This document shows, piece after piece, positions 100 to 10,200 of a DNA stretch of 64,000 nt. The stretch's first letter is position 1, and the number at the start of each line of letters is the position of its first letter. The DNA comes from Accumulibacter sp. (GTDB lineage: Bacteria > Pseudomonadota > Gammaproteobacteria > Burkholderiales > Rhodocyclaceae), in NCBI RefSeq assembly GCF_029255285.1, contig NZ_JAPUVI010000002.1, forward strand, positions 1 to 64,000, written 5' to 3'. Under the pieces are notes generated by a model, which ran no database searches, was not told the DNA's origin, and saw only the letters and a list, made by a program, of their open reading frames with translations. A program made the translations under genes and the position numbers.

Positions 100-1353
100 A
101 TGACTTCGCTCTCCCTGCTCCTCTGGATCGTCTCGGCGATCGTGCTGCAAGTGGCGATTTTTCTGGCGATCGGCTTCTGGCACCATTGGCGGAACTACCA
201 GTCCTTGCGCGGTTCGCTCGCCGCCGACCTGGCGGGCCCAGCCGCGCCGCCGGAACCGAACGACGTCGGAGCCGCCGCCTGGACGGGCTACCGGACGTTC
301 AGGGTGGACCGCAAGGTCGTCGAGGATGCCGCGCAGTCGGTCTGCTCGTTCTACCTCGTGCCCGAGGATGGGGAGGCGCTGCCGCCTTTTCTGCCCGGAC
401 AGTTTCTGACCTTTCGCCTCGAACTGCCGAAGGTGAGCGGCGACAGCGAACAGGTCGTGCGCTGCTACTCGCTTTCCGATGCGCCACGGCCGGAGGCCTA
501 CCGGGTGTCGATCAAGCGGCTGCCGCTCGGACGTTCGTCGAATTTCTTCCACGATCAGGTGCGGGTCGGCAGCCGGCTGCAGGTGCGCGCACCGGCCGGG
601 CACTTTTATCTGGATCGCAGCGACTCGCCGGTGGTCCTGATCGGCGGCGGGATCGGCATCACGCCGCTGTTGAGCATGCTCAACTGGTGCCTGGCGGAAC
701 AGCCGGGGCGCGAGATCTGGCTCTTCTACGGCTTGCGCCACGGCTGCGAACTGGTGATGGGGGCCGCCTTGAAGGAACTCGCGGCCGCCCACCCGAACTT
801 TCATCTGCACCTCTGCTACAGCGATCCGGAGCCGGCGGATCAGTTGCCGCACGAGTCTTCGCACCGAGGTCGCATCGACCTCAGCCTGCTGCGCCTGACC
901 TTGCCGCTCAAACCCTATCACTTCTACATTTGTGGTCCGGCGTCGCTGATGGAGAGCCTGGTGCCGGCACTCGAGGAATGGGGTGTGCCCGATTCGCGCA
1001 TCCATTTCGAGGCTTTCGGTCCGGCGTCGGTCAAGCCGCGGCCAGCCGCGGCAGGCCTTGGCGCCGTCCCGGCGCCACGCCGCGCGGTCGAAGCGGCCGA
1101 CATCGTCGTCACTTTTGCCCGCTCGGGGCGGCAGTTTGCGTGGCGACCCGGCGCCGGCAGCCTGCTCGAGTTCGCCGAGACGAACGGCGTCGCGGTCGAT
1201 TCCGGTTGCCGGGCCGGCGGCTGCGGCACCTGTCAGACGACGATCCGCGCGGGCGAGGTGGTCTACCGTCAGACGCCCGATTACGATCCCGACCCGGGCA
1301 GTTGCCTGCTCTGCGTGTGCGAGCCCAAGACCAGCGTTACCCTGGAGGTGTGA
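100..1353 (+). CDS. Membrane-anchored flavin/NAD(P) oxidoreductase with C-terminal 2Fe-2S ferredoxin domain
   Basis: This 417-residue protein has one N-terminal membrane segment (about residues 5-27), then a ferredoxin-NADP-reductase-like FAD domain with RCYSLS at 121-126, and a nucleotide-binding domain with GGGIGITPL at 182-190. At the C-terminus is a plant-type 2Fe-2S domain with Cys370, Cys375, Cys378 and the CLLC pair near 402-405. The family moves electrons between NAD(P)H, FAD and an iron-sulfur cluster, as in phenol hydroxylase or Nqr-type reductases. The anchor should hold the redox domains on the cytoplasmic face. It lies 3 bases before a heme-b-like membrane protein and is followed by an octaheme cytochrome, so an electron-transfer role across the membrane is inferred. 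The direction of flow and the donor are unknown. Confidence 0.85.
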   Translation: MTSLSLLLWIVSAIVLQVAIFLAIGFWHHWRNYQSLRGSLAADLAGPAAPPEPNDVGAAAWTGYRTFRVDRKVVEDAAQSVCSFYLVPEDGEALPPFLPGQFLTFRLELPKVSGDSEQVVRCYSLSDAPRPEAYRVSIKRLPLGRSSNFFHDQVRVGSRLQVRAPAGHFYLDRSDSPVVLIGGGIGITPLLSMLNWCLAEQPGREIWLFYGLRHGCELVMGAALKELAAAHPNFHLHLCYSDPEPADQLPHESSHRGRIDLSLLRLTLPLKPYHFYICGPASLMESLVPALEEWGVPDSRIHFEAFGPASVKPRPAAAGLGAVPAPRRAVEAADIVVTFARSGRQFAWRPGAGSLLEFAETNGVAVDSGCRAGGCGTCQTTIRAGEVVYRQTPDYDPDPGSCLLCVCEPKTSVTLEV

Positions 1354-1356
1354 ACG

Positions 1357-1932
1357 ATGAGTTCGCTCTGGCGCCAGCATGTCCTGCCCTTCACCTTTCT
1401 GCTCGGCCTGCTGGCCGCGGCGACGCTGACCGGCGATTACCTGCTGCATCGCCTGAATCTGGTCTGGGTCGGCCGCTATCTGGGAATTCCGGGAACGATC
1501 CTGATCATCGGTTCGCTGGTCTACTCCTTGCGCAAGCGCAAGTACATTCGGGCGGGCAACCCGAAATCGCTGCTCAATCTGCATGAGGTCAGCGCCTGGC
1601 TCGGCTCGCTGATGGTGCTGCTGCACGCCGGCATCCATTTCGACGCCATCCTGCCCTGGCTGGCGACGGTGGCCATGGGCGTCAACGTCATCAGCGGCAT
1701 GGTCGGCAAATTGTTGCTGGAGCGCGCGCGCCAACATGTGCAGGGGCGGCGCGAGCGCTTTCAGCTACGCGGTCTTTCGCGGCCGGAAGCCGAGCAGGCG
1801 GTTTTCTGGGACGCCGTGACGCTCGATGCGATGAGCCAGTGGCGCAAGGTGCATATTCCAATCTTCGTCGTTTTCGCGGTCCTTTCGATCGGCCACATCG
1901 TGAGCATCTTTCTCTTTTGGGGCTGGCTATGA
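1357..1932 (+). CDS. Heme-b-type (ferric-reductase-like) membrane protein
   Basis: A 191-residue protein with about four or five hydrophobic helices (roughly 10-29, 42-58, 78-98, 100-120 and 167-189). Histidines 76, 90, 94, 166 and 180 lie in or at the ends of helices, a spacing that suits b-heme ligation. I infer a membrane b cytochrome related to ferric-reductase-like or cytochrome b561-like proteins; no single signature settles the family. It starts 3 bases after the flavin reductase stop and its own TGA overlaps the ATG of the multiheme cytochrome (ATGA). The three are therefore very likely one transcript, with this protein as the transmembrane link between the cytoplasmic flavin/iron-sulfur protein and the periplasmic c hemes. 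Confidence 0.7.
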   Translation: MSSLWRQHVLPFTFLLGLLAAATLTGDYLLHRLNLVWVGRYLGIPGTILIIGSLVYSLRKRKYIRAGNPKSLLNLHEVSAWLGSLMVLLHAGIHFDAILPWLATVAMGVNVISGMVGKLLLERARQHVQGRRERFQLRGLSRPEAEQAVFWDAVTLDAMSQWRKVHIPIFVVFAVLSIGHIVSIFLFWGWL

Positions 1933-2696
1933 GCCGCTTCGTGAAGATCGTGCTGGCCGGCAATCTGATCGTTCTCGCGATTCTGGCCTTCGTCTATCCG
2001 CACCTGATGCTGGCACCCGGCAAGCTGATCCCCGGCCACCGGCAACTGGACGCCGACTGCTTTGCCTGCCACGCCGCGCTCAGGGGTGCCGACTCCGAGC
2101 GCTGCATCGGATGCCACAAGCCGGCCGATATCGGTCGTCTGACGACCCTCGGGCGGCCGCTCGCCAAACCGCTGACCACCACTCCCTTCCACCAGCAACT
2201 CGTCAGCGAGGACTGCGTCGCCTGTCACAGCGACCATGCCGGAGTGAAGCGCTTCCGATCTTCCGGGCGCTTCGACCATGCTTTGCTCAAGAAAGAGACG
2301 CTCGGCCAGTGCCAGGCTTGCCACAAAGCGCCCGGCGATGCGCTACACCAGCAGATCAGCGGTAACTGCCAGCAATGCCACAGCCAGGACAAATGGGTGC
2401 CGGCAAGCTTCGATCACGGCAAGTACTTCGTCCTCGACCGCGACCACAACACGCGCTGCGTGACCTGCCATACGAACAACGATTACCGCCGTTATACCTG
2501 CTACGGTTGCCACGAACACACACCGGCGAAGATCCGTCGCGAGCACATCGAGGAAGGCATCCGTAACTTCGAGCAGTGTGTCGAGTGCCACCGTAGCGCC
2601 GACAAGCACCAGATCAAGGGAGGTGACGGCGAACGGGGAGACAAGCGGCGCGACCAGCGTAAGGGAAAGCACGGTCGCCAAGCGGACGACGATTGA
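1929..2696 (+). CDS. Octaheme c-type cytochrome, membrane-anchored
   Basis: The chosen ATG overlaps the upstream stop by 4 bases and gives 255 residues. The start is followed by a hydrophobic stretch (about 6-24) that acts as signal anchor. Eight CXXCH heme-attachment motifs follow at residues 44, 59, 96, 128, 147, 177, 191 and 217, so the mature protein should carry eight c hemes in the periplasm. Many further histidines can serve as distal ligands. The C-terminal 30 residues are a charged tail rich in Lys, Arg, Asp and Gly. The spacing pattern is typical of class III/tetraheme-like multiheme proteins. With its two neighbours it looks like an electron outlet from, or inlet to, the inner membrane. 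The terminal partner is not in the window. Confidence 0.9.
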   Translation: MSRFVKIVLAGNLIVLAILAFVYPHLMLAPGKLIPGHRQLDADCFACHAALRGADSERCIGCHKPADIGRLTTLGRPLAKPLTTTPFHQQLVSEDCVACHSDHAGVKRFRSSGRFDHALLKKETLGQCQACHKAPGDALHQQISGNCQQCHSQDKWVPASFDHGKYFVLDRDHNTRCVTCHTNNDYRRYTCYGCHEHTPAKIRREHIEEGIRNFEQCVECHRSADKHQIKGGDGERGDKRRDQRKGKHGRQADDD

Positions 2697-2854: not shown

Positions 2855-4564
2855 ATGCGCAAGCGTCTGCTGGCGGCCGCCCTTCTGGCGGCCTTGCTGT
2901 TTGGCTGCGGCGAATCCCAGCCGCCCGAACGAGTCCGGGTGAAGGAACCTGAAAAGGCCGTCCGGGCCGAAGCAGCGACATCGGAGGTGAAGGCCCCGGC
3001 TCGGCAGTCGGCCAGCATCATGCGGGCGTTTTACGATTGGCCGGCATGGATAGACCCGGCGGTCGGGAACTCTCTGTCCAGTTCGGTGGCCCTGGTGAAC
3101 ATCTACGATTCCCTGGTCTTTCCAAATGCTGCCGGCGGCGTCGATCCCTGGTTGGCCGAATCGTGGACGACCTCTCCCAACGGCTTGAGGTGGACCTTCA
3201 AGCTGCGCAAGGACGTTCGCTTCCATTCCGGCAATCCGCTGGGCGCCGGCGATGTGGTCTACAGCCTGAACCGCATCAAGGCGATCAAGAAGGGTTTTTC
3301 GCCGCTGTATGCCAATGTGGTCAGCGCCCGGGCGGTCGACGAATCGACCGTCGAGTTCCTGCTGGAGAAACCCTCCGCCCTGTTCCTGCCCAGCCTGATC
3401 CGGCTCTACATCCTCGACGAGAAGTTGGTGAAACAACACGCCGCGTCGGTCGGCGACTTCGGGGCGCAAGGGGACTACGGCCTGAACTGGCTGAAGACCC
3501 ACTCGGCGGGCTCCGGTCCCTATCGGGTGCAGGAGATGGCGGCCGACGAATACATTCTGCTCGAGAAGAACGCCGGCTGGTGGGGGAAATTCGTTCCTGA
3601 CGCTCCCAGCCTGTTCCGCATGATGGCGGTTCCGACGCCGCCCGAGATCGCCGGCCGGATGCTGGTCAACGGGCAGACCGAGTTTGGCCATCACCTCGAA
3701 AACCGGGAATACCTCGAGGCCCAATCCAAGACGAAGGGAATTCAGATCGGCCTGATGCCGACCCTGAAGTCCTTGTATTTTGCGGTTCACAACCGCCTTG
3801 CGCCGACCGACGACATTTTCCTCCGCAAGGCGATGGCTTACGCCATCGATTACGACGCGTTGCTGGCATTGACCTGGCCCGGCATCAAGCAGGCGCACGG
3901 TCCGGTCCCCAGCAATCTGGCCGGACACGACCCGGACGTGTTCACCTATCGACGGGACATGGCGAAGGCCCGGGAAGCCCTGGCCAAAAGCAAGTACGCC
4001 AAGGACCTGGACAGCCATCCGATCGATATCTATTGGGTCGCCGAAGCCGCTTTCGAGGAGAGGTTCGCCATGGTCTTCAAGGCCAACATGGCCGAACTCG
4101 GGATCACCGTGCGACCGGTCAAGGTCAGCTGGAAAGAGGCCATCAAGGCGACGGCCAACATGAACACCAGTCCGCACATTCTGATCGTCTATGTCGGCGC
4201 CGACATCCCGGAAGCCGGACAGATGCTCTACCAAAGGTACCATTCCAAGACGACCGGAAGCTGGATGCAGAACGAGTGGTTGCTCGACCCCAAACTCGAC
4301 AAGGAAATCGAGGACGCGCTGACGACGACCGACACCGCAAAGCGCTTCAAGAAATACGTCGCCCTGCAGCGGGAGATCGCGGAGCGCACGCCGTCGTTCT
4401 TCATCTATGATCTCGTCCATCCGATGCCTTATCGCGCGGACTACGTCGACTGGCCGATCGTGCGCGGCGAAATGAGTCCCGTGACCGGATATTTTCATTA
4501 CGCCGCACGGATCGGCATCAAGCAGAAGCCCGAGCCCGAGGGGAACAGTCAAGCGGCGAAGTGA
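2855..4564 (+). CDS. Family 5 extracellular solute-binding lipoprotein (oligopeptide-type)
   Basis: This 569-residue protein begins with a lipoprotein signal peptide (LLFGC lipobox, Cys18) and has the layout of ABC-transporter family 5 binding proteins: a segment around '[20 protein letters not shown]' and later 'DVRFHSG', the classic signature for DppA/OppA/YejA-like proteins. They bind peptides or other small solutes in the periplasm. No permease or ATPase genes follow. Instead the stop codon overlaps a possible GTG start of a membrane histidine kinase, so a sensing role with that kinase is a reasonable inference. The ligand cannot be told from sequence. The ATG at 2855 has a good AAAGGGA site upstream. 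Confidence 0.85.
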
Positions 4565-4623
4565 GATTCGGTCAGGGAACGGCATTGGGAGCCATCGATA
4601 GACTCCGGCCTGCCATCCACAGC

Positions 4624-7449
4624 ATGAAATCCGGCTTCGGTTTTCGTACGCGACAGTTGCGTTCGAAGCTCACGCTCTTGCTGCTGACCATGTCCCTGCT
4701 GCCTTTGATCGCCGCCGGATCGCTCTCCTTCTACCAGGCGCACAACTTCCTGCGCAAAGACGCTTTCAGTCGGCTGGAAGCGATCCGCAAGATGAAGGCC
4801 CAGCTTACCGAAAGTCGTTTTCGCAACATCGCGAGCGACATTCAGCTGCTGTCGGCCCAATCCCTGGTGGTCTACGCTACCCAGACCTTGCAGACCGCGG
4901 TCAAGAGCCAGGGCCTGAGTCGAATACGGGAACTGGGCTACCTGGGTCACCGCGAGCTGGTCATTTCGCAGAACTACACGCATTACGATTTCCTGCATCT
5001 GGAGCGCCATGCATTTTTTGCCGAGACCGCGCGCGCCAAGGGCTACGACGATATCCTGCTCGTCAATGAAGACGGCGACGTCATTTACAGCTACGCCAAG
5101 CAGGACGATTTTGCCAGCAACCTGCTGCGTGGCGCCTATGGCGACTCGGCGGCGGCGCAGCTCTTCCGCGAGTTGCAGGGCGCCGCCAACCCGGCCGAGA
5201 TCAGAATGACCGACTACTCCAGGTATCCGCCGGCCGGCAACACGACGGTCAATTTCATCGGTGCCCGGATTTTCAGCAATGGCCAGCCGGTCGGTGCCCT
5301 GATCGTCCGTTTACCGCTGGCGACGGTCAACGAGCTGATGCAGGATGCCACCGGTCTGGGTACCACTGGCGAGACCTACCTCGTGGGTCCGGACAAGCGT
5401 ATGCGCTCGGATTCGCTCTTCAGCAGCGAGCCGACCAGCTTGGTGAAGACGGTGGACACGCCCACCGTCAATCTGGCGTTGCGGGGTGAAGCCGGCGTCG
5501 AGCGCATCGCAGGCTACTGGGAGCACGAGGTTCTCAGCGCCTATCAGCCGCTGCACATCCTGGGGATCAACTGGGTTCTGATTTCCGAAATGGCCGAATC
5601 CGAGGCGTTGGAAAACGCCAGACGTCTGGGCAATCTGTTTCTCATGGTCATTCTGGCGGTGATTGCCATCACGACCGTGATCGGTTTCCGGGCGGCGAGA
5701 AGCGTCGCCCGGCCGGTGGCGGAATTGAGCCGGGTGGCGACCGGAATCGCCAAAGGCGAGGTCGATCAGCGGATCAGTGTCAGGTCCAAGGACGAGGTCG
5801 GCGTGTTGGCCGACGCTTTCCGGGAAATGATCGTCTACCTGCAAAACATGGCGGATGTGGCCAACAAGCTCGCCGCCGGCAATCTCTCGAGCGAAGTCAC
5901 CATTCAAGCGCAATCTCCGCGCGATACGCTGGGCGTCGCGTTCGCGCAGATGATCGTGGACTTGCGGCGACTGGTCAACGAACTGGGAGCCGCCAAGGAG
6001 CAGGCGGAAGGAGCCAACCGCGCGAAGAGCGTTTTCCTGGCCAACATGAGCCATGAATTGCGCACTCCCCTGAACAGCATTCTCGGGTTTTCCGAACTGA
6101 TGCAGCGCGAGGCGGCCTTGCATGAGCAGCCGCTGACCCTCGCGCAGCAGGAGAACCTGGCCATCATCCATCACAGCGGCAAGTCTCTCTTGACCCTGAT
6201 CGACGACATCCTGGAATTGTCGAAGATCGAGGCGGGCAAGGTGACGCTCAACGAGACCGCTTTCGACCTCCGGCAGTTGCTCGCCGAAGTCGAAGATCTG
6301 TTCCGCTTGCGGGCGCTCGACAAAGCGTTGAGCCTCGAGTTCGCCTGGTCGGAGGGTGTGCCGCAGTGTATCCGCAGCGATCGCGTCAGGGTGCGCCAGG
6401 TCATCGTCAACCTGGTTGGCAACGCCATCAAGTTCACCACCAAGGGACGCGTCAAGCTGACGGTCGCCGCCACGCGGGATGATCGTTCGCCGCCGCTGGT
6501 TCTCACCGTTCGGGTCGAAGATACCGGTCCGGGCATCGCTCCCAATGAAATCGGCCTGCTGTTTCAGCCGTTTTCGCAAACCGTGACGGGCGTCGCCTCG
6601 CAGGAGGGAACCGGTCTCGGCCTGGCGATCAGCCAGCAGAATGCCAGGATGCTGGGCGGAGAAATCCGTGTGCACAGCGTCGTCGCGCAAGGCAGTGTGT
6701 TCAGCTTCGAGTTCAGGGCCGTCGAGGATGTCCCCGAGGCCGCCGCGGCGGACTTGCCGGAACGACGGGTCGTCGGCCTGGCTCCCGGCCAGGAACAGTT
6801 GCGCATGGTGGTGGCCGACGACAACCTCAACAACCGTCGCTTGTTGGTGCGTCAGCTCAGTTCGCTGGGGATGGAGACCAAGCAGGCCTGCCACGGTGGC
6901 GAGGTGATGGAACTGTGGGAACAATGGCAACCGCACTTGATCTGGATGGATGTCCGCATGCCGGTGTTGGATGGCCTCGAAGCGACGCGCCGGATCAAGG
7001 CGTCGGAGCAGGGGAAAAACACGATCGTCATCGCGCTGACGGCGGGGGCTTACGCGGAAGACAGGGAGGCGGCCCTGGCCGCGGGATGCGATGGTTTTCT
7101 GAGCAAACCGGTCCACAGCGAAGAGTTGTTCGCCACCATCGGGCGCTTCCTGAACGTCCACTATGTTTATGCCGACTCGGCGAGCGAAGGCGAAGGCGCC
7201 GCCGGGCAAGCCTGCGAACTATCGGCGGATGCCCTTGCCCGGCTCGACCCGTCGCTACTCGGGCGCCTCGAAAGAGCGGCTGCGCGAGCCGACATGAAAG
7301 GGGTCGATGAACTGATCGCCGAGATCAGACGGTACGAACCGGCCGTTGCCGAAGTTCTGGCCAGCCTGGCAAGAGATTTCGAATACCCGGCAATCATTTC
7401 CCTGATTCGCCAGCCCTCGGTCTCTTCGACCACGGACAGCAGCGGCTAG
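4624..7449 (+). CDS. Hybrid sensor histidine kinase with periplasmic sensor, HAMP and receiver domain
   Basis: About 941 residues from the ATG at 4624. A GTG at 4561, overlapping the previous stop as GTGA, would add 21 residues; neither start has a good ribosome-binding site. Order of domains: first membrane helix (about 12-35), a large periplasmic Cache-like sensor region, second helix (near residues 335-355), HAMP, histidine kinase core with [11 protein letters not shown] (His477 as phosphoacceptor), ATPase motifs [15 protein letters not shown] and GTGLGLAIS, then a receiver domain with phosphoacceptor Asp776 (IWMDVRMP). A roughly 90-residue C-terminal tail resembles the tail of the next kinase. 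It sits directly after an orphan solute-binding lipoprotein, which could present the signal. The output regulator is not adjacent. Confidence 0.85.
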
Positions 7450-7770
7450 GAAAGGCGCGACGCTCGAACTTGTGGACCGTGTTGACGGCGCCTGATGACG
7501 GCACGTATCCTTCCGCCGGTAGCGTTGGCATCGCCGCCCGTGCGCCATCGGCGACGGGCAGGCCGCCGAGCCGGTATGAAAAGCGGCGGCGGCTCAAACT
7601 GATCCGGACGGAGACGGAATGCCATGACTGGAAGAAATGGACGTGATCTGGCGGTACTCGCCCACAGGTGCTAAGCAAACCTCGACTCCGGTACCCAGCG
7701 CAAGCGTGCGCGCGGCGCCGCGCGCCACCGGTGCTCGGCTTCCGGTGCCGGGTCGGACCAGGGTGATGAG
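7450..7770. other. 321-bp intergenic stretch between the two hybrid kinases
   Basis: No convincing gene, RNA or terminator. A minus-strand frame is open across it but has no ribosome-binding site, no family resemblance, and runs into both flanking genes. The fragment GCAAACC near 7673 recalled a c-di-GMP riboswitch but the rest of that motif is missing. The end of the stretch holds the AGGGTG ribosome-binding site of the second kinase. Confidence 0.6.
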
Positions 7771-10200
7771 ATGAACTCAACACCGGTCGAGCTTCCGGCC
7801 AGCATCCTGGTCGTCGACGACAACCGCGGGAGCTTGCGTTTGCTGGCCGGTTTGTTGCTCGAGCAGGGTTTTCGCGTTCACCCGGTGATCAGCGGCGAAG
7901 CCGCCCTGGCCGTCGCCGACGCCGAGCCGCCGGATCTGGTTCTGCTTGACGTAAATATGCCCGGCATCGACGGCTATGAGGTCTGCCGGCGCCTGAAGGC
8001 CAACGAACGCACCGCCGCCGTGCCGGTGATCTTTCTCAGCGCGGCCGACGAAACGATCAACAAGGTCCAGGCCTTTACTGTCGGCGGCGTCGATTTCGTC
8101 ACAAAGCCGTACAAGGCCGAGGAGGTGCTGGCGCGCATCGATGCGCAGCTCCGGCTGTATCGCCTGCAGGCTTGTATCGAAGCCCAGAACCGTGCCTTGC
8201 AGGCCGAGATCGTCGAACGGGAACGTGCCGAGGCGGCACTGGTGGAACTCAATCAACGGCTCGAAGGTCTGGTCGCCGAGCGCACCGCCGACCTGACGCG
8301 GGCCAACTCCGAACTCAAGGTCGAAGTTGCCGAGCGGCTGAGCGCCGAGGCGGCGCTCAGGGAAAGCGAGCAGAAGTATCGTTCCATCGTCTGGAATGCG
8401 CCGGTGGGCATCTTTCGCTCGACGCCGGAGGGTCGCTTTCTCGAGGTCAATTCGGCCATGGCGACCCTCTTCGGCTACCCGTCCACCGATGCCATGGCAG
8501 GCGAAATCGACGGTTTCGGCGCCGATCTGTTCGTCCGCCCGGAGGAGCATCGGCTTATCGTCGACGAACTGCGGCGCACTGGCCGCGTCAAGCAACGTAC
8601 CAACAGCTACCGCCGCCGCGACGGCACGGAGTTCGTCGCCAACCTCTACCTGGCGACGCTCGACGACGAAACCGGATCTCCCCGCTTTCTGGAAGGCATC
8701 GTCGAGGATATTACCGAACGCAAGCGGGCGGAGGCGGAACTGGTCGCCTACCGGGATCATCTGGAGGAACTGGTCGAACAGCGGACGGGGGAACTGGCGC
8801 AGGCCAAGGAAGCCGCCGAGATGGCCAATCGGGCAAAAAGCCTGTTTCTCGCCAACATGAGCCATGAACTGCGCACGCCGCTCAACGTGATTCTCGGCTT
8901 TTCTTCGCTGATGCGGCGCGACGCGCGCATGGCCGGCCGCGACCGGGAGCATCTCGACATCATCAACCGCGGCGGCTCGCACCTGCTCGGGTTGATCAAC
9001 GACATTCTCGACATGGCCAAAATCGAGGCTGGCCGTGTTCAGTTGGAGTCGGTGGCGTTCGATCTCGACACGCTGGTCAATGATGTGGTCGGCATGATGG
9101 ATCAGCGCGCCGTCGAGAAAGGCGTCGATTTGCGGCTGGAGCGCTCCGCGCGGACGATACGCTATGTGCGGGGCGATGAGACCCGGCTGCGGCAGGTGCT
9201 GGTCAACCTGCTGGGCAATGCGATTAAGTTTACTCCGCAGGGTTCGGTCACCCTGCGGCTCGACACTCTGCCGGGCCCGAATGGACCTCGTCTGACGATC
9301 GAAGTGGAGGACAGCGGTCCCGGCATCGCGTCGGGCGATCAAGCGCGGATTTTCGATCCGTTCGTGCAGGTGGGACAACCGGCTGCCCAGCAGGGCACCG
9401 GTCTGGGTTTGGCGATCACTCGTCAGTTCGTCGAACTGATGGGCGGTCGGATCGGTGTCAGCAGCCAGCCCGGACGCGGGAGTTGTTTCCGGGTCGAACT
9501 CCCCGCCGAACCGGCCAGCGAGTCGGAGGTCGCGGCCGAGCAGGATGAAGGGGGGGATGTCATGTGCCTGGCGCCCGACCAGACGGCCTACCGGATTCTG
9601 ATCGTCGAGGACCAGCCCGAAAGTGCCTTGCTGTTGAGCCGCTTGCTCGAGGAAGTGGGCTTCCAGGTGCAATGCGCGGAGAACGGCCTTCGGGGCGTCG
9701 AATCATTCCAGCACTGGCGGCCGCAGCTCATCTGGATGGACTTGCGGATGCCGAAAATGAACGGCCTCGAGGCAACCCGCCGTATCCGCGCCTTGCCAGG
9801 CGGTCGCGAGGTCAAGATCGTCGCGGTTACCGCATCCGTGTTTGCCGAAGAGCGGCGCGAGATTCTGGCCGCCGGCATGGACGACATCCTGCACAAACCC
9901 TATCGTCCGACAGAGATCTTCGAGTGTCTGAGCCGGCAGCTCGGCGTGCGTTACCTTTGTCACGCGAGCGACGCGGCGCGCCAAACGCCGCTAACGCTGG
10001 ATCCCACGGCCCTCGCGGCGCTGCCGGAAGACCTGCGGCGGCAATTCACGGAGGCTCTGGTCGTCCTCGACATCGCGCGCATCGAGGCCTTGATTGGCCG
10101 CGTCGCGGAAGCGGACGCCGCGATGGCCAAAATCTTGCGCCACCATGCCGATCGTTACGACTACACGGCGATTGAGGCGGCGTTTCGGGAGGCGGCATGA
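7771..10200 (+). CDS. Cytoplasmic hybrid histidine kinase: receiver-coiled coil-PAS-kinase-receiver
   Basis: 809 residues with no membrane segment. An N-terminal receiver domain (ILVVDDN; phosphoacceptor Asp60 in LLDVNMPG; TKPYK) is followed by a coiled coil (about 130-195), a PAS domain (about 200-320, with its closing 'EDITERKRAEAEL'), a second coiled coil, and the kinase core with [11 protein letters not shown] (His365), NLLGNAIKF, DSGPGIAS and [10 protein letters not shown] second receiver carries Asp657 (IWMDLRMPKMNG). The last 80 residues resemble the tail of the upstream kinase, so the two may share an origin. The leading receiver suggests input from another kinase, possibly the neighbouring one. 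AGGGTG precedes the ATG. Confidence 0.88.
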   Translation: MNSTPVELPASILVVDDNRGSLRLLAGLLLEQGFRVHPVISGEAALAVADAEPPDLVLLDVNMPGIDGYEVCRRLKANERTAAVPVIFLSAADETINKVQAFTVGGVDFVTKPYKAEEVLARIDAQLRLYRLQACIEAQNRALQAEIVERERAEAALVELNQRLEGLVAERTADLTRANSELKVEVAERLSAEAALRESEQKYRSIVWNAPVGIFRSTPEGRFLEVNSAMATLFGYPSTDAMAGEIDGFGADLFVRPEEHRLIVDELRRTGRVKQRTNSYRRRDGTEFVANLYLATLDDETGSPRFLEGIVEDITERKRAEAELVAYRDHLEELVEQRTGELAQAKEAAEMANRAKSLFLANMSHELRTPLNVILGFSSLMRRDARMAGRDREHLDIINRGGSHLLGLINDILDMAKIEAGRVQLESVAFDLDTLVNDVVGMMDQRAVEKGVDLRLERSARTIRYVRGDETRLRQVLVNLLGNAIKFTPQGSVTLRLDTLPGPNGPRLTIEVEDSGPGIASGDQARIFDPFVQVGQPAAQQGTGLGLAITRQFVELMGGRIGVSSQPGRGSCFRVELPAEPASESEVAAEQDEGGDVMCLAPDQTAYRILIVEDQPESALLLSRLLEEVGFQVQCAENGLRGVESFQHWRPQLIWMDLRMPKMNGLEATRRIRALPGGREVKIVAVTASVFAEERREILAAGMDDILHKPYRPTEIFECLSRQLGVRYLCHASDAARQTPLTLDPTALAALPEDLRRQFTEALVVLDIARIEALIGRVAEADAAMAKILRHHADRYDYTAIEAAFREAA

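Follow-up and report, generated by a model that had tools for sequence, protein, structure and literature searches.

The stretch of Accumulibacter sp. DNA analyzed here, 64,000 nucleotides long and called the window below, begins at the first base of contig C2 (G000:C2), and close to that end it carries three genes, referred to here as the trio, for a putative NAD(P)H reductase, an inner-membrane protein, and an octaheme c-type cytochrome. The open reading frames (ORFs) lie on the + strand at positions 100 to 1353 (417 amino acids [aa]), 1357 to 1932 (191 aa), and 1929 to 2696 (255 aa), with intergenic gaps of +3 and −4 bases. The third gene is taken from the ATG at 1929; a GTG-started ORF at 1839 is a longer mechanical reading. 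An earlier note, made from the letters of this DNA alone, had read the same layout and the same gaps, and the coordinates bear it out. It had also described the first protein as a flavin/2Fe-2S protein with its own anchor, which agrees with the Pfam matches (FAD_binding_6, NAD_binding_1, and Fer2) and an N-terminal helix, and the third as a cytochrome with eight CXXCH motifs, which were counted in the ORF and are accompanied by Pfam matches to class III cytochromes c. No other ORF in the 64-kb window, whose upstream side is cut off by the contig end, has three or more CXXCH motifs. The features are as follows.

100..1353, + strand: membrane-anchored NAD(P)H reductase, 417 aa (ORF call, Pfam, hydropathy and charge)
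385..957, + strand: FAD- and NAD(P)-binding domains of the reductase, residues 96 to 286 (Pfam FAD_binding_6 and NAD_binding_1 above cut-off)
1117..1329, + strand: 2Fe-2S domain of the reductase, residues 340 to 410, with cysteines 370, 375, 378, and 405 (Pfam Fer2, 1e-11)
1357..1932, + strand: inner-membrane protein, 191 aa, with two predicted hemes b, a short relative of the PCC3 inner-membrane protein (conservation, model, profile comparison)
1582..1626, + strand: first HX13H motif (H76, H90), helix 3 (invariant, 87/87)
1852..1896, + strand: second HX13H motif (H166, H180), helix 5, preceded by W162 to give WX3HX13H (invariant, 87/87)
1929..2696, + strand: octaheme c-type cytochrome, 255 aa, with an N-terminal membrane anchor at residues 4 to 22 (Pfam, CXXCH count, alignment)
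2058..2591, + strand: heme-binding region, eight CXXCH motifs and nine other histidines (44-sequence alignment)

Relatives of the membrane protein were collected by a pattern-based scan of a genome collection, which yielded 104 confirmed relatives, the best 80 of which were kept. Counts at the sequence level refer to 87 sequences, one of them a duplicate record (L021 = L028), and neighbor counts at the kept loci were made by tblastn.

All three domains of the reductase match Pfam above the cut-offs, and the best matches among solved proteins are flavohemoproteins (residues 57 to 308) and phthalate dioxygenase reductase (residues 75 to 411). C370, C375, and C378 are each kept in 84 of 85 sequences and C405 in all 85, and together these four cysteines are the predicted ligands of a plant-type 2Fe-2S site. 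The N-terminal helix (residues 6 to 24) is followed by net positive charge in the charge and hydropathy profiles, which places the catalytic part, by prediction, in the cytoplasm. Two other kinds of reductase-like protein were considered and rejected. Frames of 750 aa in six genomes of the same genus are 37 to 39% identical to the reductase; the one examined (L145) lacks a cytochrome part and, by reading, resembles a pyridoxamine-oxidase-like/FNR fusion. A 745-aa reductase-like protein of L089 is a fatty acid desaturase fusion.

The membrane protein has no Pfam match above cut-off, the DUF4405 match at 0.0016 being below it, and its conservation is more informative. Six histidines (H31, H76, H90, H94, H166, and H180) are invariant in the 87 sequences and H8 is found in 85 of them, which corrects the five helix-associated histidines of the earlier note to six, plus H8. 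Four of the six form two HX13H pairs, H76/H90 and H166/H180. In an AlphaFold model of moderate quality the protein folds into five long helices (residues 4 to 32, 43 to 58, 69 to 93, 98 to 138, and 142 to 188), and the two pairs sit on helices 3 and 5. An SGXXG motif (S113, G114, and G117) is also invariant, and a tryptophan, W162, precedes the HX13H motif on helix 5; on helix 3 the corresponding residue, 72, is a leucine. The protein is predicted to hold two hemes b. Topology was assigned from charge and hydropathy, and it would place H76/H166 toward the cytoplasm and H90/H180 toward the periplasm, with the body of the reductase inside and the cytochrome outside.

The third protein matches Cytochrom_c3_2, Cytochrome_C7, and Cytochrom_CIII in Pfam above the cut-offs. 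Eight CXXCH motifs are present in 82 of 86 sequences; the rest are two contig-cut sequences with three, one with nine, and one with ten. Nine histidines outside these motifs (37, 88, 103, 117, 140, 163, 173, 197, and 206) are invariant in 44 aligned sequences, so that bis-His ligation appears possible for all eight hemes.

The kept relatives come from Rhodocyclaceae, Azonexus, Zoogloea, Rhodoferax and other Comamonadaceae, Gallionellaceae, Thiobacillus, and Sulfuritalea, with further carriers among the methanotrophs (Methylococcales and Crenothrix) and in one Moraxellaceae genome. Named strains in this set include Rhodoferax antarcticus ANT.BR, Zoogloea oleivorans Buc, and Dechloromonas sp. 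CZR5. Whether the three genes co-occur in order was a check proposed in the earlier note, and they are not found mostly apart: the order reductase, membrane protein, cytochrome is seen at 77 of the 80 kept loci, and the reductase gene is directly upstream at 78. Of the exceptions, L079 keeps the reductase and stops at a contig edge, and L103 and L105 are without a reductase. As to spacing, there are −1 to +3 bases between the reductase and membrane genes in 83 of 85 cases (6 and 12 in the remaining two) and −4 between the membrane and cytochrome genes in 85 of 86 (151 in the other). Among 150 related genomes, the window's own included, there are 13 close copies of the membrane gene (75 to 100% identity) in 11 genomes. 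The same 13 places hold all 13 full-length cytochrome matches (65 to 100%; the G030 cytochrome has an internal TGA) and 13 of the 14 reductase matches of at least 51%. Two copies of the trio each are found in G014 (L005 and L021) and G049 (L009 and L022); both G014 copies are followed by a match to the CDF cation exporter, and on C85 this match is only partial. In a class-wide sample of 369 genomes, a close relative of the membrane protein is present in 8 (own included) and a distant one in 6, and the 7 other close relatives (56 to 61% identity) have the reductase adjacent in 6 cases, the exception being L115. A far more divergent trio (24 to 30% identity) retains the gene order in G240. Over 77 loci, the pairwise distances computed for each of the three proteins correlate with one another (r of 0.75 to 0.79), as those of related sequences would anyway.

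A second line of evidence comes from PCC3, a conduit whose inner-membrane protein is described in the excerpts of He et al. 2017 used here as having about 300 residues and five helices, with SGXXG on helix 4 and WX3HX13H on helices 3 and 5 (PMC5566968). Distant relatives of the trio membrane protein occur in the 150 genomes (25 to 40% identity) and in the class-wide sample. Four of them, at L124, L125, L126, and L131, are membrane proteins of about 300 aa followed by 18- to 27-heme cytochromes and then by 17- to 54-heme cytochromes, and going by motifs and layout these loci are probable PCC3 clusters. Eight aligned long membrane proteins carry WX3HX13H, SGXXG, and WX3HX13H in that order, as in the definition given in the same excerpts (PMC5566968). 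Profile comparison with hhalign of the short family (49 rows) and the eight PCC3-type proteins gave a probability of 97.1% and an E value of 7e-11 over residues 1 to 131, that is, helices 1 to 4. The cytochromes also match PCC3-type ones, at 28% for L013 and L014 (in clusters L125 and L124) and at 26% for L123 (E 3e-18, in L131). A divergently transcribed flavoprotein stands beside the PCC3-type cluster in L124 and L131 (Pfam 4Fe-4S and Pyr_redox) and, by reading, in L125. The distant locus L132 is laid out differently, with a 287-aa protein encoded next to a 10-heme one and to genes for cytochrome c maturation. In the PCC3-type cluster of G034, a genome of the same family, an ORF of 1524 aa with 54 CXXCH motifs lies beside a 24-heme protein (L126:8813-13387).

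Judged by homology and layout, the trio thus resembles the inner part of a PCC3 conduit to which an NAD(P)H reductase has been added: its membrane protein is a homolog that carries SGXXG and two HX13H motifs, and the gene that follows, as in PCC3, encodes a multiheme cytochrome. It differs in that the membrane protein has 191 aa rather than about 300 residues and carries the tryptophan before HX13H on helix 5 and not on helix 3, the adjacent cytochrome has 8 hemes rather than 18 to 27, and there is no second, extracellular-type multiheme cytochrome. Furthermore, the trio reductase belongs to the FAD_binding_6/NAD_binding_1/Fer2 family and is encoded in the same operon, whereas the flavoprotein beside PCC3 is of another family. 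No porin was named among the neighbor proteins put to Pfam, a search that did not include beta-barrel prediction.

Short five-helix HX13H proteins encoded beside multiheme cytochromes and “another redox protein,” mostly with no porin, are also described in the excerpts of He et al. 2017, with the gene immediately downstream of the cytochrome gene, and most of them are said to share no significant homology with PCC3/PCC4 proteins (PMC5566968). The trio resembles this group in its five helices, the HX13H motifs on helices 3 and 5, a length shorter than that of PCC3, and the adjacent multiheme cytochrome and redox protein. It differs in that its membrane gene is immediately upstream of the cytochrome gene and in that profile comparison does find homology to PCC3. 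On the portion of the paper available, the trio may well be among the proteins of its Supplementary Table 6. The earlier note had asked whether a known complex has the same three subunits in the same order; He et al. 2017, as far as the excerpts go, mention in passing a comparable set of parts, in which the membrane gene follows the cytochrome gene instead of preceding it. A literature search of open-licence papers turned up none that we recognized as describing the trio. The kind is thus known in outline, and what is added here is the conserved trio with an NAD(P)H reductase, the homology to PCC3, and the spread.

Gene content, order, overlap, conservation, the PCC3 homology, and the neighborhood, all of them observed, lead us to conclude that the three proteins probably assemble into a single electron-exporting complex in the inner membrane, which would take electrons from NAD(P)H and pass them to periplasmic cytochromes. 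The idea of the earlier note, a module that leads across the membrane from NAD(P)H to a multiheme cytochrome, is well supported by the domains, the conserved ligand residues, and the gene order. We infer the heme and flavin content, the assembly, the direction, and the acceptor as follows. Cytosolic NADH or NADPH would pass hydride to the FAD of the reductase, from which electrons would move singly to the 2Fe-2S cluster, on to the cytoplasm-side heme b (H76/H166), and across to the periplasm-side heme b (H90/H180). They would then enter the eight bis-His hemes c of the anchored cytochrome and leave for the periplasm, where the candidate takers are a diheme/monoheme DHC-SHP pair or oxidized metal species. 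By textbook energetics, outward flow should be favored by both redox potential and membrane potential. Because such flow is downhill and dissipates the membrane potential, redox balancing or the supply of periplasmic reductant is a more likely role than strict respiration with energy conservation.

Several findings weigh against this reading. The AlphaFold models are of limited quality, moderate for the membrane protein (predicted local distance difference test [pLDDT] of 70.3, predicted template modeling score [pTM] of 0.60) and poor for the cytochrome (pLDDT of 50.1), and fold searches returned nothing clear. No partner gene is universal in the neighborhood of the trio at the 36 of 80 loci that have at least 6 kb on each side, loci that are related and whose counts are not independent. 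The fourteenth reductase match (G148, 51%) has no membrane gene beside it, and a 47-residue piece that is 68% identical to the cytochrome stands apart in G014 (C110). The membrane protein and cytochrome also occur without the reductase at L103, L105, and L115, and no close reductase was found elsewhere in these draft genomes, the best matches being 24 to 29% identical (36 to 42% over two short ferredoxin stretches). This indicates that the pair can work with another electron source.

That source could be the quinone pool. The membrane protein would then trade electrons with quinones, and the reductase would add or remove electrons or reduce quinone. Two of the three reductase-less pairs lie between genes of the cbb3-oxidase type (by reading) on one side and a Crp/Fnr-type regulator gene on the other (L103:5116-14278 and L105:2-8936; Pfam for the regulator in L103), and the PCC3/PCC4 inner-membrane proteins are proposed to be quinone-active in the excerpts of He et al. 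2017 (PMC5566968). The position of the reductase directly upstream at 78 of the 80 loci fits a direct hand-over instead, and we consider a quinone-linked role unlikely.

Other observations at these and more distant loci concern layout. The L103/L105 stretch continues with a HemN-like gene (by reading) and a DsbD_2-family gene. The unaccompanied reductase of G148 is part of a cluster (L140:8597-18622) with 3-, 4-, and 10-heme cytochromes and a cyclic-nucleotide-binding 4Fe-4S protein, which adjoins genes resembling, by reading, those for cytochrome c maturation. In the divergent trio of G248 (L144:3501-4482) the cytochrome has at least 12 CXXCH motifs and reaches the contig end. Within 250 bases upstream of 71 reductase genes, 14 FNR-like boxes had at most two mismatches, compared with about 6.3 in shuffles; several come from near-identical loci and the counts are not used as evidence. 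Fur- and CRP-like boxes were not enriched upstream of the same 71 genes.

The neighborhoods bear on what the proposed export complex might reduce. Within 6 kb of the membrane gene, a CDF cation exporter is found at 17 of the 36 loci, SHP, DHC, and a response regulator at 8 each, a histidine kinase at 7, cytochrome b561 at 5, and a fused Ferric_reduct protein at 4. The CDF gene lies upstream or downstream of the membrane gene and on either strand; such varying positions and strands argue against one inherited arrangement, though the loci are related. In the window, the gene next downstream of the trio encodes a family-5 solute-binding protein (Pfam), none of the neighbors just listed being directly downstream, and it is followed at 4561 to 10200 by two large ORFs that resemble hybrid sensor kinases by reading.

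The frequency of CDF genes raises the question of whether the trio serves to reduce metal ions in the periplasm, alongside the metal exporter, under metal stress. By our own estimate, based on 87 CDF matches in 31 genomes, about 0.3 of the 36 loci would have such a neighbor by chance, against the 17 observed. A divergent trio in G388 (L143) has a different CDF (29 to 31% identical) directly downstream, and a far relative, L127:4327-11463, with a 7-heme cytochrome, a 247-aa five-helix protein, and a 693-aa reductase with an extra N-terminal part, has a multicopper oxidase on one side and, on the other, a protein whose Metal_resist match falls below the cut-off. These CDF and copper-type contexts suggest metals as an acceptor. 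As an account of the trio as a whole, a dedicated metal-stress role has little likelihood: 19 of the 36 loci are without such a CDF within 6 kb, the CDF counts come from related loci, and none of the window genome's three CDF matches is on the window contig, where the solute-binding protein gene takes the downstream position.

The DHC/SHP context suggests periplasmic c-type cytochromes or iron as the acceptor. The SHP-type protein at L034 has matches to two solved proteins, 1dw0 and 1e8e. DHC is present in 11 of 11 trio genomes compared with 63 of 139 others, a co-occurrence that was set aside because most of the genus has DHC; only physical closeness was used, and DHC is within about 3 kb of the trio at 3 of 13 loci (G035, G049, and G057). 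In the parts of the literature consulted, an Fe(II)-responsive irc cluster contains DHC, SHP, and b561 of the same description (PMC8788666, PMC12442390, PMC10734462), and the likeness is one of description only.

The same genes could be taken to mean that the octaheme cytochrome takes up electrons from outside donors, Fe(II) or others, and that these electrons reach NAD(P)+. Many carriers belong to Gallionella, Ferrigenium, Sideroxyarcus, Thiobacillus, and Rhodoferax, and DHC, SHP, and b561 occur within 6 kb at 8, 8, and 5 of the 36 loci, genes that are irc-like by the available descriptions (PMC12442390, PMC8788666). By textbook values, reduction of NAD+ needs about −320 mV, and electrons would have to move inward against the membrane potential with no visible proton-coupled part, which makes the option of running in reverse, raised in the earlier note, thermodynamically poor. 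Furthermore, a second multiheme cytochrome is not conserved: across 1.15 Mb at the 80 loci, another ORF with at least five CXXCH motifs occurs only in L078, and a second, extracellular-type cytochrome is thus not part of the unit. Inward uptake is, in our view, improbable.

Outward transfer of this kind has a well-known counterpart in the NOX/ferric reductase (FRD) family, whose members use NAD(P)H, FAD, and two stacked hemes b to move electrons across the membrane. By prediction, the trio shares NAD(P)H, FAD, the outward path, and two hemes b on HX13H helices, a motif attributed to NOX/FRD in the excerpts of He et al. 2017 (PMC5566968). Unlike that family, it is split into separate chains, includes a predicted 2Fe-2S cluster, and would release electrons through eight hemes c. 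In addition, the window membrane protein has no match to Pfam Ferric_reduct at E 0.1, and a remote relative in L132 reaches only 20.4 bits against a cut-off of 28. A tentative and more specific proposal, which we regard as possible, is that a PCC3-type inner half came to share one operon with an NAD(P)H reductase of its own, giving a “wired NOX” that bypasses quinones and supplies the periplasmic cytochrome network and metal chemistry from the cytosolic NAD(P)H pool.

Accumulibacter itself reportedly has a novel quinol reductase, described by Garcia Martin et al. in 2006 and said to be a single chain in which cytochrome b, NAD(P), and flavin domains are fused. We know of no octaheme partner for it. 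The earlier note had left open a link between the trio and this protein, which is of the same genus and has similar cofactor types (flavin, NAD, and heme b). The quinol reductase is reported in most Accumulibacter genomes, as far as the source was available (PMC4930944), whereas the trio is found in 5 of 28, as separate chains and with the octaheme cytochrome added. A fused Ferric_reduct-FAD-NAD family, by comparison, is present in 24 of the 28 genomes at E below 1e-180 (Pfam shown for L040); at the looser limit of 0.001 every one of the 28 gives a match, often to other reductases. This family appears to be the better candidate for the reported enzyme; that the trio is that enzyme is extremely improbable, given its distribution and separate chains. 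In the window genome, the match to the fused family (C105:206448-207767) lies about 70 bases from a diheme DHC match (C105:207837-208190).

In a quick tree of 79 concatenated trios, the seven Accumulibacter rows fall in three places, grouping the window with A. necessarius and A. phosphatis SBR_S, G020 and G026 with an uncultured beta proteobacterium, and UBA704 with Propionivibrio; the starred branches require at least two changes of the Accumulibacter label. Given these three places and the presence of the trio in 5 of 28 genus genomes, the patchy distribution in Accumulibacter would fit transfer or repeated loss.

At oxic-anoxic boundaries, bacteria have to exchange electrons between cofactors in the cytosol and partners in the periplasm or in minerals; the routes known best run via quinones. 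If the proposed export is correct, a quinone-independent route from NAD(P)H to the periplasm would be a means of redox balancing at such boundaries. PCC3-type membrane proteins in general could then be NAD(P)H-fed, through the 4Fe-4S/Pyr_redox flavoprotein encoded beside PCC3, rather than quinone-active, and the electron partner that has been proposed for PCC3 proteins of iron-cycling bacteria would come into question. The trio is a compact three-gene system open to expression and testing, and it appears, from the genomes compared, to be widespread and patchily inherited among many environmental proteobacteria.

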